Source: a virus. Taken from it: a DNA stretch of 22,668 bases. The stretch spans positions 1-22,668 of the IMG/VR virus record IMGVR_UViG_3300008266_000585, one strand, 5' to 3'. Each line of letters begins with the position of its first letter. Positions within the stretch are counted from its first letter, which is position 1. Shown here piece after piece: positions 5,896-22,668 of this stretch. The position numbers and the translations under genes are program-made. The notes under the pieces are model-generated. The model was not told the origin of the DNA. It saw nothing but the letters and a program-made list of their open reading frames with translations, and made no database searches.

Positions 5896-7008
5896 ATGTC
5901 AGAAGTCATGCTGGCTTCTGCTTCTGAGAAACAGAAGTGGATCAGCCAATACTACGCTGAGTATGTGCGCAATTCCGGCTTCAAGCCCTACATGGGCAAG
6001 TCGTCTTCCAGCATCATCATCGCCAAGTATGAGCTGCAAGAGGAAGCCGGAAAAACCATCAACATCCCCCTGATCACCAAACTGGTGGGACAGGGCGTAA
6101 CCGGCGCAACCTCTCTCGACGGCAACGAAGAAGAGCTTGGCAACTACAACTGCGGCATCAGCGTCGATTGGCGCAGGAACGCGGTTCGCATCCCGAAATC
6201 GACGTCCTACAAGACCGAAATCGATCTTTTCGGCGCGGCAAAAGACATGCTGCGCACATGGGAAGCGGAGAAGCTGCGCAATGACATCATCACGGCCATG
6301 CTGTCGGTTGTCACGACTGGCGACACGACGGTTTCCCTTGCCAGCTCATCGTCTGCGAACCGCAATGCTTACTCGGCTGCGAACGCTGATCGCCTGCTGT
6401 TCGGCAAGCTCAAGTCGAACTACTCCGCGACATGGGCGACCGCCACGGCAACCCTCGACACGACCGACGACAAATGCACGGTTGCGTCGATGTCGCTGGC
6501 GAAGCGCATCGCCAAGTCGGCTGACCCCCATATCCGCCCGTACAAGACAGCGGACGGCCGGGAATACTACGTGGCGTTCCACGGCGCGCGGACGTTCCGC
6601 GACCTGAAGGCTGACACCACGATGACGCAAGCGAACCGTGAGGCTCGCTCGCGTGAAGGCTCTGGCATGGATGACAACCCGATCTTCCAGGACGGCGACC
6701 TGCTCTATGACGGGATCATCCATCGCGAAGTCCCGGAGATCGATGACGTGTCATCGACCGGCACCTACAACCTGACCAACGCCGGCGCTTCGGGAACAAC
6801 GGACGTTCGTCCGGTCTTCCTGTGCGGCGCGCAGGCGGTTGGCATCGCATGGGGCCAAGAGCCGACCCCGCGCACGGACATGCAGAAAGATTATCAGTTC
6901 CGTCCTGGCGTCGCCATCGAGGAACTGCTTGGCGTGAAAAAACTGGCGTACAATGGTAAGCAACACGGCGTTGTGTCGTGCTTCTTTGCCGCCGCTGCTG
7001 ACTCGTAA
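5896..7008 (+). CDS. Major capsid protein, N4-gp56 family
   Basis: 370 aa, with ribosome site AGAGGAT upstream of the ATG. The N-terminal third contains LQEEAGKTINIPLITKLVGQ and then GVTGATSLDGNEEELGNY, and the sequence continues with RNAVRIPKSTSYKTEIDLF. The 'G-x-G-V-x-G ... L-x-G-N-E-E' signature is typical of the N4-gp56 type of HK97-fold major capsid proteins (TIGR04387/DUF4043), which are usually about 350-400 aa long. The C-terminal part (VFLCGAQAVGIAWGQEPTPR, RPGVAIEELLGVKKLAYNG) matches the family's end. The protein forms the icosahedral shell, with the scaffold gene directly upstream. Family assignment is from motif recognition. Confidence 0.9.
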   Translation: MSEVMLASASEKQKWISQYYAEYVRNSGFKPYMGKSSSSIIIAKYELQEEAGKTINIPLITKLVGQGVTGATSLDGNEEELGNYNCGISVDWRRNAVRIPKSTSYKTEIDLFGAAKDMLRTWEAEKLRNDIITAMLSVVTTGDTTVSLASSSSANRNAYSAANADRLLFGKLKSNYSATWATATATLDTTDDKCTVASMSLAKRIAKSADPHIRPYKTADGREYYVAFHGARTFRDLKADTTMTQANREARSREGSGMDDNPIFQDGDLLYDGIIHREVPEIDDVSSTGTYNLTNAGASGTTDVRPVFLCGAQAVGIAWGQEPTPRTDMQKDYQFRPGVAIEELLGVKKLAYNGKQHGVVSCFFAAAADS

Positions 7009-18610: not shown

Positions 18611-19018
18611 ATGGATGACGATTTCAACGAGCGCTTCAAGGCGCTCAAGCGTGAATTGCGTGAGGTTGCGGAGGACTTCGAACAGCTCAGGAAGCGCAAG
18701 GCAAACGGAGAAGACGTGGAACAGATCGCAGCAAAGGTGACCGCCATCGAGAGCGAGATGCGCACGAAGTTCGCGTCCCTCCAATCCGACAGCCAGGAAG
18801 TGCGCCACGGGCTCCAGAAGCTCGTGGAAGCAATCGACCATCTCCGCGCCGACCTCTCCACGCACAAGCGCGAAATTGCGCAGGTACAGGACAGCCAGAA
18901 GGGCAGCATGTGGGCGCGCATCCCGGTTGCCGGATGGGTGCTTATGGCCGTGGGTTGCTTCGCGGTGATGCAGCTTGGCCTTGAACGCTGGGCCGAGTTT
19001 CAGGGGATGGGGCGGTAA
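18611..19018 (+). CDS. Coiled-coil protein with C-terminal TM helix (XhlA/holin-like, putative)
   Basis: 135 aa; AAAGG lies about 9 nt upstream of the ATG. Residues 1-98 form a continuous charged coiled coil (RFKALKRELREVAEDFEQLR, IAAKVTAIESEMRTKFASLQ). They are followed by one TM helix at about 104-122 (IPVAGWVLMAVGCFAVMQLG) and a short tail. This soluble-coil plus C-terminal anchor plan is that of haemolysin XhlA-like proteins, which act with holins and endolysins in some phages. It stands at the head of the membrane/lysis region. A holin-accessory role is inference; it could also be a virion membrane-contact protein. Confidence 0.7.
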   Translation: MDDDFNERFKALKRELREVAEDFEQLRKRKANGEDVEQIAAKVTAIESEMRTKFASLQSDSQEVRHGLQKLVEAIDHLRADLSTHKREIAQVQDSQKGSMWARIPVAGWVLMAVGCFAVMQLGLERWAEFQGMGR

Positions 19019-19086: not shown

Positions 19087-19602
19087 ATGACCAAGACAGT
19101 TCCTATTGAAACGCTCCGTAGAATATTTGTCTATGACGGTGAGACGGGCAATCTCACATGGTCCTTTGACGAAGGTGTCATGCCCCATGTTCGGGGCAAG
19201 CAGGCTTTCACGTCGAAGGGCAGTCACGGATACTGGCAGACCAACTATCGCGGCATCGTCATGCTTGCGCATCGCGTCATCATCGCGATGGAAACAGGCG
19301 AATGGCCCATTCAGGTTGATCATATCAACGGCGACAAGGCCGACAACAGGCGCGCAAACATTCGCCCGGTTACTCAATCAGAAAACAGAAAAAACCTGTC
19401 GCTGACCGCCAAAAACAAAAGCGGCGTCATGGGCGTTAGCTGGGACAAGGTGAACGGAAAGTGGGTCGCGAGAATTAAAGACGCGACCGGACGAATGAAG
19501 AACTTAGGGCGCTTCAAGACATTGGAGGAAGCTGCTGCCGTCAGAAAACAATCTGAGCGGCAGAACGGGTATCACACAAATCATGGCAGGATAACTAGAT
19601 GA
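19087..19602 (+). CDS. HNH homing endonuclease with AP2 DNA-binding domain
   Basis: 171 aa; AGAGGGTG lies just upstream of the ATG. Residues about 55-105 form the HNH nuclease: AHRVIIAMETGEWP, then VDHINGDKADNRRANIR, with H62/R63, D78-H79, N81/N87/N91 and an ENRKN end. Residues about 112-165 match an AP2 DNA-binding fold (SGVMGVSWDKVNGKWVARIK, LGRFKTLEEAAAVR). HNH_3 plus AP2 is a standard layout of phage freestanding homing endonucleases that cut intronless or endonuclease-less alleles and are copied by repair. Base composition is more AT-rich than the neighbours, a sign of acquisition. It sits between two membrane-protein genes and its TGA overlaps the next ATG. Confidence 0.9.
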   Translation: MTKTVPIETLRRIFVYDGETGNLTWSFDEGVMPHVRGKQAFTSKGSHGYWQTNYRGIVMLAHRVIIAMETGEWPIQVDHINGDKADNRRANIRPVTQSENRKNLSLTAKNKSGVMGVSWDKVNGKWVARIKDATGRMKNLGRFKTLEEAAAVRKQSERQNGYHTNHGRITR

Positions 19603-20600
19603 CGGGCTGGGACCGGGCTGCACACTTTGGGCGATGGATGAAAGACCATGCGCCCGCATTTACAGTCGCTTTTGTAACATTCAGTGCGCTGTGGTTTGCA
19701 GTCGGGCTGGCGTGTCTGGCGCTCTACTATTTCGACTCGATGTTCTACCGGAGCCTCGCGCCGCCCGGAATGGAGTTTGCCTTTCAGTGCATTGGCATCG
19801 TGTTCCGCACGTTCGTCATCTTCGGCGGCCTCGCGATTGTCTGGTTGAAAACCAACAAGATCAACCCCGCTGCCGGCCGCACGCTGCGCTTCATCTGGGT
19901 GATGGGGCTGATTGCGTGTGGCATCGCTGCGTTAGGCTTCGTCACTGAAGGAAACGACTGGCACTATCGTAAGGGCGCCGCGATTACGCAGACGGAAAGC
20001 GCATCGACGGAAAGCGCCGACACGATCATCGCACGCGCCGAGAAGGAAAAGGTCGCGATACGCGCCGACCGTGACCAGTTGGTAGCAGCCGCGCGTCAGT
20101 CGATGAACCTCGTCCTTGATGACGGCAACAGCCGCAACGATGACGTCTCGACCTACGAAAAGAACATCGCGCAATACCAGACCGAGGCGCAAGCCAAGCT
20201 GGACGAGCAGGACGCGAAAATTGCCGCCGCAGAGACTGACCGTCTCGGCGCGCGTCAGCAGGCGACGGAAGCGGCCATTGGCGATCCGGCATTGCCTGCG
20301 GTGTTCCAGGCTCCCGCGCGCTATTTCGCAGGCTTCGATGGCGTGACGTTCCGTGACGCCTTCGCACTGTTCTGGGTGATCTTGCTCGAGGCGTGCGGAT
20401 CTGTCGGCGCGCAGGCTTTGCTTGCCGTCCAGATGGCGATGTCAAAGCGGAAAGAAGCGCAAGAGAACGGATCACGCGGGGGACGCACGACATCGCGACG
20501 CCGACTGATCGAGGACATGCGCAAGGCGCGAACCGAAACCAAAGCCGATCTCTCGGAGGATAAAGACAATGGGTCTGCGGCAAGCCAAAACGCAGCCTAA
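19599..20600 (+). CDS. Membrane protein with four TM helices and a large extramembrane coiled coil
   Basis: 333 aa; the ATG overlaps the HNH stop (ATGA), with AGGA 8 nt upstream. TM helices are seen at about 20-44, 60-83, 96-116 and 254-280. Between TM3 and TM4 lies a 130-residue charged coiled coil (IIARAEKEKVAIRADRDQLV, KNIAQYQTEAQAKLDEQDAK). The C-terminus (286-333) is basic, hydrophilic and probably cytoplasmic. No enzymatic motif is apparent. A membrane protein of this design in the lysis region might be a holin-related, spanin-like or superinfection-exclusion protein; I do not recognise a named family. Both of its ends abut HNH endonuclease genes. Confidence 0.75.
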   Translation: MTGWDRAAHFGRWMKDHAPAFTVAFVTFSALWFAVGLACLALYYFDSMFYRSLAPPGMEFAFQCIGIVFRTFVIFGGLAIVWLKTNKINPAAGRTLRFIWVMGLIACGIAALGFVTEGNDWHYRKGAAITQTESASTESADTIIARAEKEKVAIRADRDQLVAAARQSMNLVLDDGNSRNDDVSTYEKNIAQYQTEAQAKLDEQDAKIAAAETDRLGARQQATEAAIGDPALPAVFQAPARYFAGFDGVTFRDAFALFWVILLEACGSVGAQALLAVQMAMSKRKEAQENGSRGGRTTSRRRLIEDMRKARTETKADLSEDKDNGSAASQNAA

Positions 20601-21166
20601 ATGTGCTTCCATCTGCTGCCACGCCTAATGGCCGCGACGTCTGTTGGTCGTAGGCCCAACCGCCGAGCAATTTCTGCGCTTGTTCCTTTTTCTTCGTATT
20701 TGATGCGCCTCGCCATCTCGTTGGTAAGCTTGGCGTGTACATGCGCCTCACCGACCATTCTTGTCTTGTGTACGTCCATATCGGACAGGTTTTCGGCTCG
20801 CGTCGCCCACCTTAAGTGACGCGGGTTTATGCATCTTCTGTTGCCGCAAGAATGCGCAGCGTCACGGCCCTTTGGGCTTGGGCCGGAAGTTTTTGTGCAG
20901 ACGTATCTATGCGCGGCTACCGCCGTTCCATCTTCAAGGCGAATTACTGGGTAACGCGTTTGGTTTTTTCCAGTTGGCCAAATAATGCATTCAGCGGTTT
21001 GGCTTTCAATGGCTTCGTTTGCGAAACGCAGCGGCTCGCCAATGCCGAGTTTGATTAGGTCTATAGTTCCGCGCCGCTTAACTCTGGCATAGTGAGCTGC
21101 GCACATCGTTCCGGCGAACTTCTTCTTGCCGCAACTGTCTACTGAACATACGGAAGGATTAGCCAT
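20597..21166 (-). CDS. HNH homing endonuclease with N-terminal zinc motif and C-terminal HTH-like end
   Basis: 189 aa on the minus strand, with AGAGG about 4 nt upstream of the ATG. Residues 7-33 form a zinc-binding segment (C7, C12, C22, H25; CAAHYARVKRRG). The HNH core is at about 84-131: AAHRYVCTKTSGPSPKGRDA, then HSCGNRRCINPRHLRWATRA, with H105, C107, C112, N114, H117 and N126. The C-terminal 50 residues (HVHAKLTNEMARRIKYEEKG, AEIARRLGLRPTDVAAI, WKHI) are a helix-turn-helix of the type that follows such nucleases. This architecture differs from the AP2-containing enzyme at 19087. Its stop shares bases with the stop of the facing membrane gene (CTAA). Confidence 0.88.
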   Translation of the reverse strand: MANPSVCSVDSCGKKKFAGTMCAAHYARVKRRGTIDLIKLGIGEPLRFANEAIESQTAECIIWPTGKNQTRYPVIRLEDGTAVAAHRYVCTKTSGPSPKGRDAAHSCGNRRCINPRHLRWATRAENLSDMDVHKTRMVGEAHVHAKLTNEMARRIKYEEKGTSAEIARRLGLRPTDVAAIRRGSRWKHI

Positions 21167-21226: not shown

Positions 21227-21303
21227 TGTCTCAGCTTAGCAAAATCTCACTGACCATCAACTTAATGGGGGTACATGTGCCCATAGAAGTTCTGCGCCGC
21301 AGA

Positions 21304-22464
21304 ATGCCTCACGAGCATATCGTCACCGATCAGACGGTATCGCTAATTCGAGGCTTTGAGGGACTGCACCTCAAGGCATATCCGGACCCTGCAAGCGAAC
21401 TAGCAAGAACTGGCAAAGGTTCTGGCGAGCCGTGGACAATTGGTTACGGCCACACGAAGGGCGTGAAGCCCGGCGACACATGCACACTTCAGCAGGCTGA
21501 TATCTGGCTACAGCAAGATGCTGATGATGCGGCCAACATCGTGCGCACTAACATCACTGTACCCCTGACCGCTGGGGAGTTTGGCGCCCTGACGTCGCTG
21601 GCGTTCAATCTCGGGTACATCCCGAAATCGTTAAAGGCCTGCTTGAATGGCGGCGTGACGGACGCGGGCAAGGTGATGACGCCGGGCAGTTATGGATCGG
21701 CGCTTCTCCAGTTTCCCCGCAACTGCCGCGCAGGTGGCAAGCCGCTCAAGGGCCTGTACCGGAGAAGACTGGCTGAAGCTTGCCTGTTCTGCGACCTCCC
21801 GTGGGAGAACGCTTGCAGCATCAGCGTGATCAAGCTGCAAGTCACTGAAGGCGGGCAGATCGACCCGAACGAAAGCACGTCGCTTGAAGACACCCTCATG
21901 CGTGCGCGGCTCGATACATCAAAGCCGCCGAACACATCCGAGATACTAAAAAAACCTTGGTCAGAATTGGTCAAGAAAGCTGAGCCTGAAGCCGTGCCGG
22001 CGACAGGCGAGGCGGAACCAGCGGCGCAGGAAGCCCCCCAGCCCAACCGGCCGCCGCTGGTGTCTGCCCCCGTTCCTGCGCCGCCGAGTGGTCCGGTTGC
22101 GCAGGCGCCGGCGGTGGTGGTCCCGGCTCCCCAGCCCCCGCCGCCGCCGGTCAAGCCTGCGCCGCCCCCGAAGCTCCCTGACCCGCCCGTTCCCATCGGC
22201 CAACAGACCGGCGCTGTAGATGCCGCGAGAAAGTCGGAGGAGTGGTCATCATCTGCCAAGTCGATGATCTACTCCCGCCGATTTTGGGGCCTTCTCCTGG
22301 TTGTGGCGGGCCGTGTCTGGATGCTCAAGACTGGCAGCAACGCGGTTCTTGGAGCTGTTTCTGATCCGCTCGTGATGGAGATGTTCTCAGGCTTCATGGT
22401 CATGGTCATCGGTGAAGCCGTGCAACATTGGGGCGAACGCAAAGCCACGCGGCCGCTCAAATGA
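21304..22464 (+). CDS. GH24 (T4-type) lysozyme endolysin fused to a C-terminal two-TM holin-like domain
   Basis: 386 aa from ATG 21304. The frame is open further upstream to a TTG at 21187, but 21304 puts the catalytic Glu at residue 19, normal for the family; its ribosome site is weak, so the start is uncertain. Residues 7-160 are a phage lysozyme that cuts peptidoglycan, with SLIRGFEGLHLKAYPDP (E19, D28) and WTIGYGHT (T45) forming the E-D-T triad. An insert precedes T45. A Pro/Ala-rich linker (about 230-305) follows. Two hydrophobic helices come next (FWGLLLVVAGRVWML and VMEMFSGFMVMVIGEAVQHW), ending in a basic tail. No signal peptide is seen. The membrane domain resembles small holins; fusion in one ORF is unusual. 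Confidence 0.85.
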   Translation: MPHEHIVTDQTVSLIRGFEGLHLKAYPDPASELARTGKGSGEPWTIGYGHTKGVKPGDTCTLQQADIWLQQDADDAANIVRTNITVPLTAGEFGALTSLAFNLGYIPKSLKACLNGGVTDAGKVMTPGSYGSALLQFPRNCRAGGKPLKGLYRRRLAEACLFCDLPWENACSISVIKLQVTEGGQIDPNESTSLEDTLMRARLDTSKPPNTSEILKKPWSELVKKAEPEAVPATGEAEPAAQEAPQPNRPPLVSAPVPAPPSGPVAQAPAVVVPAPQPPPPPVKPAPPPKLPDPPVPIGQQTGAVDAARKSEEWSSSAKSMIYSRRFWGLLLVVAGRVWMLKTGSNAVLGAVSDPLVMEMFSGFMVMVIGEAVQHWGERKATRPLK

Positions 22465-22668
22465 TGGCGCTATGGATGGGCCTGCCACAATGGGCGCGCA
22501 CCGCGCTCCTGTGGTGCGGCGCGCTGTTCATGATGGCGCTGACCGGCAAGTTCTTGCTGTCGCAGCATGACAAGCGCATCCGCAGGGAAGTGAACGACGC
22601 GCGCGACATCGAAGCCGCGCAAGTAGAGTCAGAAGTCCTCACCCAGATCACGGAAAACACCAATGAAG
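22461..22668 (+). CDS. Rz-like inner-membrane spanin (3' partial)
   Basis: The ATG overlaps the lysozyme TGA (ATGA), and the frame is open to the window end (69 codons). The product starts MMALWMGLPQWARTALLWCG, then carries one N-terminal TM helix (about residues 12-34, continuing LFMMALTGKFLLS). A charged periplasmic coiled coil follows (KRIRREVNDARDIEAAQVES). A short N-in TM helix plus a coil directly after an endolysin is the classic i-spanin (Rz) layout, which joins with an outer-membrane Rz1 to break the outer membrane at lysis. An overlapping Rz1 frame cannot be judged because the gene is cut off. Confidence 0.7.
   Translation, partial: MMALWMGLPQWARTALLWCGALFMMALTGKFLLSQHDKRIRREVNDARDIEAAQVESEVLTQITENTNE

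Follow-up and report, generated by a model that had tools for sequence, protein, structure and literature searches.

Endolysins with a transmembrane domain (TMD) at the C terminus have been described from several phages. LysAP of Acidovorax phage AP1 (OM049504; PMC8879335) combines a GH24 domain (PF00959, E 4.4e-44) with a C-terminal hydrophobic helix and a basic end, is encoded in a lysis cassette, and needs its TMD for localization and lysis (PMC8879335). The endolysins of the Chi-like phages (Enc34 ORF39, M4Lys, and Siskin; PMC8943055, PMC7143992) likewise carry a C-terminal TMD and no N-terminal signal and belong to lambda-like cassettes with spanins; Enc34 has two helices, and the tail of M4Lys is needed for membrane localization and lysis (PMC7143992). 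The papers on Enc34, M4Lys, and LysAP ask how C-terminally TM-tailed endolysins reach the wall. In the Caulobacterales, SpmX (muramidase domain 6h9d; PMC5347347) joins a GH24 domain through a long proline-rich linker to two C-terminal TMs, a layout that was checked in more than 40 genomes by a scan whose query matched real genes at up to 89% identity. SpmX showed no detectable lysozyme activity; its lysozyme domain is devoid of secretion signals and interacts with PopZ, a cytoplasmic protein, and with the cytoplasmic portion of DivJ (PMC5347347).

The DNA analyzed here, referred to as the window, spans a whole IMG/VR contig (22,668 bases) and comes from a P22-like podovirus (P22_portal PF16510, E 8e-66; capsid PF13252, E 6e-57) whose capsid protein shares 50% identity with the capsid protein of Pseudanabaena phage Pam1. 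It encodes a GH24 muramidase, a Pro/Ala linker, a C-terminal two-helix domain, and a basic end in a single uninterrupted ORF, and all of these elements, including the catalytic E-D-T set, were borne out as a sequence-only reading of the DNA had described them. The protein is classed here as a putative C-tail-anchored endolysin: the enzyme is N-terminal, the helices are C-terminal (marginal in the type A tail of the window, clear in the type B tails of relatives), an N-terminal signal is absent, and the gene lies in a lysis cassette. The sequence-only reading had suggested that this layout was unknown, yet LysAP, M4Lys, Enc34 ORF39, and SpmX share the C-terminal TM arrangement. The design itself is thus already known, and the interest of the protein lies in natural tail swaps and in the parallel with SpmX.

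The described systems differ from the window protein. LysAP has 227 amino acids, a short linker, one described TM, and a holin gene upstream, and its tail has no profile similarity to that of the window protein. The Chi-like enzymes belong to the PHA02564 catalytic family, not GH24, and are shorter, without a long proline linker. The SAR endolysins P1 Lyz and R21 have the GH24 fold and are structural matches but possess an N-terminal membrane helix, and there is none in the window protein. Roseobacter phages CRP-3, CRP-212, CRP-235, and CRP-738, as well as TM-tailed GH24 genes of alphaproteobacteria, pair GH24 with a C-terminal hydrophobic tail, but they lack a long Pro/Ala linker, and homology to the tail of the window protein was not detected. 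In the literature library that was searched, no report of a proline-linked TM endolysin was found. In contrast to the window protein, SpmX is a cellular cell-pole scaffold encoded outside a lysis cassette; the window family is its phage parallel, in which the whole layout exists inside a phage lysis cassette.

In the GH24 tree the SpmX domains are monophyletic (100/99) without phage rows, and no homology was detected between SpmX tails and the phage tails (hhalign <3%). Co-option of a phage lysin has been proposed as the source of the SpmX GH24 domain; a phage family in sister position to SpmX is absent from the GH24 tree. Because the phage tails are unlike those of SpmX, LysAP, and the Roseobacter phages, and because SpmX forms a separate clade, the GH24-linker-TM layout seems from these sequence comparisons to have arisen more than once. 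In Parvularculaceae and other alphaproteobacteria (L203-L224), many GH24 genes encode an acidic linker that varies between them and a TM at the C terminus, for example LLILLxVLFIIxARVDDWxKYRR; the tree places these genes close to SpmX (92/89).

Gene architecture and lysis cassette

The features of the locus are collected in Table 1. The sequence-only reading had placed the ORF at 21304-22464; the frame is real and uninterrupted, but its start probably lies upstream of ATG 21304, at GTG 21277 (395 amino acids). This start is preferred over ATG 21265 and ATG 21304 because the MPIEVLRRR read from GTG 21277 aligns with the MAIEILRRR starts of relatives, unlike ATG 21304. The lysozymes of relatives begin at MAIEILRRRPPSE, the counterpart of which in the window is GTG 21277, and a putative Shine-Dalgarno sequence, GGGGG, is located 5 nt upstream of this codon. 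The match to PF00959 spans residues 17-158 (Pfam, E 3.5e-26), and its score of 92-95 bits exceeds the cut-off (22.3). The catalytic Glu, Asp, and Thr of the putative muramidase are positioned in the motifs RGFEG, YPDP, and WTIGYGHT, respectively, and the active site is intact. Foldseek matches of the lysozyme domain were phage GH24 endolysins, including R21 and Lyz, and the SpmX muramidase domain 6h9d. The linker comprises approximately residues 216-300 and is rich in proline (29 of the 91 residues between 215 and 305). The N terminus, MPIEVLRRRMPHEHIV, is polar and basic and a scan shows no N-terminal hydrophobic segment, which sets the protein apart from SAR endolysins.

Table 1. Features of the lysozyme gene and of the downstream spanin genes in the window
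Feature	Position	Strand	Basis or remark
Complete lysozyme gene (GH24 domain, proline linker, two-helix tail)	21277..22464	+	GTG 21277 start preferred
GH24 / Phage_lysozyme catalytic domain	21352..21777	+	PF00959; PDB relatives 9kbs, 6et6, 8app; Foldseek
Catalytic residues	E19 21358-21360; D28 21385-21387; T45 21436-21438	+	Numbered from ATG 21304
Pro/Ala-rich linker, predicted disordered	21949..22203	+	pLDDT <50; dN/dS up to 0.81; breakpoints
Conserved juxtamembrane helix (QTGAVDAARKSEEWSSSAKSMI)	22204..22269	+	Alignment of relatives, tail-only model
First hydrophobic helix (RRFWGLLLVVAGRVWMLKT)	22276..22332	+	About residues 325-343; marginal hydrophobicity
Second hydrophobic helix (region of PLVMEMFSGFMVMVIGEAVQHWG)	22366..22446	+	About residues 355-381
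Basic C-terminal end ERKATRPLK	22435..22461	+	Sequence, charge pattern
i-spanin (Rz-like) gene, cut by contig end	22461..22668	+	ATGA overlap with lysozyme stop
o-spanin lipoprotein gene, first codons ATGAAG only	22663..22668	+	Offset +201 from lysozyme stop

Downstream of the lysozyme the window carries only the start of a two-component spanin system, which is complete in relatives. In these, the lysozyme stop overlaps the start of the i-spanin gene, which encodes a homologue of 100 amino acids with an N-terminal TM, and the o-spanin gene overlaps that of the i-spanin. The offset of the o-spanin start in the window is the same as that of MKSFARLTLCAAIPLLSSC in relatives (PHROG 1275, Rz-like spanin, E 4.6e-8). 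After the o-spanin, most relatives encode a separate small protein of about 46-78 amino acids with one or two TMs. These small proteins match no holin family and are called holin candidates because of their place, size, and helices. The contig ends (22668) inside the i-spanin gene and a separate holin is therefore missing from the window; the earlier impression that there was no separate holin is explained by this contig end. One relative (L046:3001-4400) has a chimeric i-spanin, with a type A-like N-terminal membrane part and a type B-like periplasmic part, next to a type-B-like o-spanin.

Two HNH homing-endonuclease genes that are absent from most relatives, at 20597-21166 on the minus strand and 19087-19602 on the plus strand, flank the lysis genes of the window. 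The former parts the lysozyme from its usual upstream neighbor (19599-20600, plus strand), breaks the usual overlap of the two genes, and gives the lysozyme a new 5' end. In L016 another HNH gene (6137-6718, minus strand), 33% identical to the minus-strand HNH of the window, is located between lysozyme and i-spanin, so that the lysis cassette appears as a repeated homing target. The upstream neighbor encodes 333 amino acids, with three TMs at the N terminus, a coiled-coil region, and a single hydrophobic segment further along; its counterparts overlap the lysozyme start directly in relatives and fall into two divergent classes, with identities of about 90% and about 30%, respectively. Further upstream (18611-19018, plus strand) lies a 135-amino acid coiled-coil protein with one C-terminal TM, which is kept in 14 of 15 relatives checked and is a second membrane-lysis candidate.

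Conservation and exchange of the tail

A scan of viral contigs gave 28 relatives, and further ones came from searches that used either just the tails or a set of lysozyme domains. The same order of lysozyme, linker, and two helices is unbroken in more than 30 IMG/VR contigs, and every full copy is a single ORF. The tails of close type A relatives are 72-100% identical, with dN/dS values mostly of 0-0.2, compared with values of up to 0.6-0.81 in the linker. Between the tails of the window and L006 there are 13 synonymous and no nonsynonymous differences, and for the window and L026 the dN/dS of the tail is 0.034. The tail is better conserved than the enzyme to which it is attached, the identity of which falls to 27-33% in L029, L049, L050, and L051. 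The tail is under purifying selection, and together with the unbroken ORF in more than 30 independent contigs this rules out an assembly or read-through error, one circumstance in which the claim of a genuine fusion would have failed. The whole fusion was absent from prophage and host genomes in a genome-contig scan with alignment. In L103 (2501-3487) the linker is in another frame and Arg-rich, with enzyme and tail intact, as if by two compensating indels.

The tails are of three types: A, found in the window, B, carried by L020, L021, L023, L054, L056-L060, and L069, and C, found in L096. Types A and C are homologous (hhalign 98%), and profile comparison found no homology between A and B. 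What is new here is the modularity of the protein, in which near-identical enzymes carry tails of type A, B, and C, breakpoints lie in the linker, and tail type tracks the spanin. In the tree, the GH24 domains of L026 (A) and L096 (C) are identical and those of L004 (A) and L021 (B) are nearly identical. Tail A also occurs on two lysozyme groups, a single origin of these enzymes being recovered in 42% of bootstrap trees. Across the enzyme, most 60-base segments show a DNA identity of about 80-100%, as far as codons 260-275 in the linker; identity then falls to approximately half across the tail and the spanins beyond it; in the L004/L021 pair it returns at the common small TM gene. Recombination breakpoints between relatives thus fall in the proline linker. 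Such swaps, one enzyme with different tails and one tail with different enzymes, make the question of how TM-tailed endolysins reach the wall directly testable.

The type B tail occurs with a type B i-spanin in 10 of 10 cases and the type A tail never does; the i-spanins beside A tails are 21 iA, 2 iC, 2 iD, and 3 of unassigned type. Both A and B tails are accompanied by h2, one type of the small TM gene, which shows that tail type tracks the spanin and not the holin. As the tail and spanin genes adjoin, linkage alone can explain this association, and a functional match of tail and spanin is possible. The tail is a module, exchanged between relatives along with the spanin genes through recombination in the proline linker. 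It is an unlikely proposition that the linker serves as a built-in recombination joint and makes the endolysin a machine of two exchangeable parts, allowing any GH24 domain to be combined with a tail that travels with the spanins and is suited to them in function, so that cleavage of the murein would be physically coupled to envelope fusion. If this were true, SpmX-like layouts would have arisen repeatedly, in phages and bacteria, by the addition of tethered tails to GH24 enzymes.

Predicted membrane topology and proposed route to the wall

AlphaFold models of 13 relatives show a confident lysozyme, a disordered linker (pLDDT <50 at residues 231-324 in the numbering of the 395-residue form), and a helical tail. 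Tail-only models of 16 relatives resolve three helices, the juxtamembrane one and the two that follow it, with pLDDT values of about 60-80; the confidence of the tail model is moderate (mean pLDDT 64), and a structure search with the tail gave no significant match. The best 19-residue Kyte-Doolittle mean in the window protein is 1.57, slightly under the usual 1.6, and this hydrophobicity is not beyond chance, with 265 of 1000 shuffles of the protein reaching the same value. Approximate estimates of the insertion energies of the two type A helices are about +1.4 and +1.1. With such weak helices a strict TM predictor may call none, whereas the type B tails are clearly hydrophobic. The evidence beyond chance is the conservation of the tail together with its replacement at the same place by more hydrophobic two-helix tails. 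The flanking charges are constant in 21 of 21 type A tails, with +1 to +3 on the N side, -1 in the loop, and +3 or +4 on the C side. By the positive-inside rule this constant pattern predicts an N-in, C-in topology in which both tail ends and the enzyme face the cytoplasm. The lysozyme domain of SpmX, binding cytoplasmic partners without a secretion signal, supports the same N-in topology for an SpmX-like layout. The linker had earlier been proposed to reach through the periplasm; the type A charge pattern argues otherwise, since it places the enzyme in the cytoplasm, and the linker would then not extend across the periplasm prior to lysis.

We give a probability of about one half to the most likely reading, in which the protein is a phage endolysin anchored C-terminally at the inner membrane on its cytoplasmic side, from which it would reach the wall once a separate holin acts. 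Because it has no N-terminal signal, the GH24 domain would be made and held on the cytoplasmic face, where a two-helix hairpin (N-in, C-in) would hold it via a leash of more than 100 residues. The tethered enzyme would be harmless until the membrane is opened or depolarized by the separate holin, the probable candidate for which is the small TM protein encoded downstream of the spanins in relatives. The flexible leash could then let the still-anchored enzyme reach the murein at the hole; alternatively, the weakly hydrophobic hairpin might slip out of the membrane and release it. The spanin pair would complete lysis. This model is supported by the setting of the gene in a lysis cassette, in which the spanin genes overlap and a small TM gene stands apart, and also by the intact GH24 active site, the unbroken fusion, the selection on the tail, the constant charges, the AlphaFold models, the tail swaps with breakpoints in the linker, the cytoplasmic partners of SpmX, and the need of LysAP for its TMD. 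Against it stand the weak type A helices, holin candidates that belong to no holin family, and the moderate confidence of the tail model. In addition, LysAP and M4Lys lyse E. coli on their own when over-expressed, which suggests by analogy that the enzyme can cross without a holin.

The last observation is accommodated by a C-terminal SAR-type mechanism, as proposed for LysAP (PMC8879335) and discussed for Enc34 (PMC8943055). Here a weak hairpin would insert, the enzyme would cross alone by Sec or by flipping, and depolarization would free it, with a pinholin or no holin needed. The weakly hydrophobic, charge-containing helices look like releasable anchors, and azide slows lysis by LysAP, which is also a GH24 enzyme with a C-terminal TMD, while loss of the TMD abolishes it. 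Lysis by M4Lys likewise proceeds in the absence of a holin. Against this mechanism, a Sec inhibitor did not stop M4Lys. Moreover, the window protein has no N-terminal signal and a charge pattern that predicts N-in, no known route exports an N-terminal hydrophilic domain using a C-terminal signal (PMC8943055), and the SpmX lysozyme domain appears to be cytoplasmic. We therefore regard this mechanism as rather unlikely for the window protein.

A true holin-endolysin fusion, in which the tail oligomerizes and makes the hole so that one protein is both timer and enzyme, is improbable. The size of the tail and its basic end are holin-like, and a natural holin-endolysin fusion, in an order opposite to that of the window protein, has been reported from Clostridium sporogenes. 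In Pam5, a distant relative by its capsid protein, a separate 72-amino acid two-TM protein (L227:20277-20495) occupies the place of the tail, with the endolysin on one side and the next TM gene, the i-spanin candidate, on the other. However, profile comparison found no homology of tails A and B to the Pam5 protein or to the downstream small TM proteins, and tails A, B, and C match no holin family in Pfam or PHROGs, where the tail has no other family match either. The tail was also never found as a stand-alone gene, searches of viral contigs and phage records with tails A and B giving fusions only or no match, and most relatives retain a distinct small TM gene downstream of the spanins. Of the two options in the sequence-only reading, membrane tether or combined holin and endolysin, the second is disfavored along with the likening of the tail to a small holin, and membrane tethering by the tail is the best reading of the sequence data. 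Very improbable is a role of the tail mainly in docking to the spanin complex or to some other protein of the envelope, with amphipathic, peripheral helices, as the strict pairing of the B tail with the type B i-spanin, the presence of h2 with both tails, and the marginal hydrophobicity of the type A helices might suggest, since adjacency of the genes is sufficient to explain the pairing and the type B tails are clearly hydrophobic.
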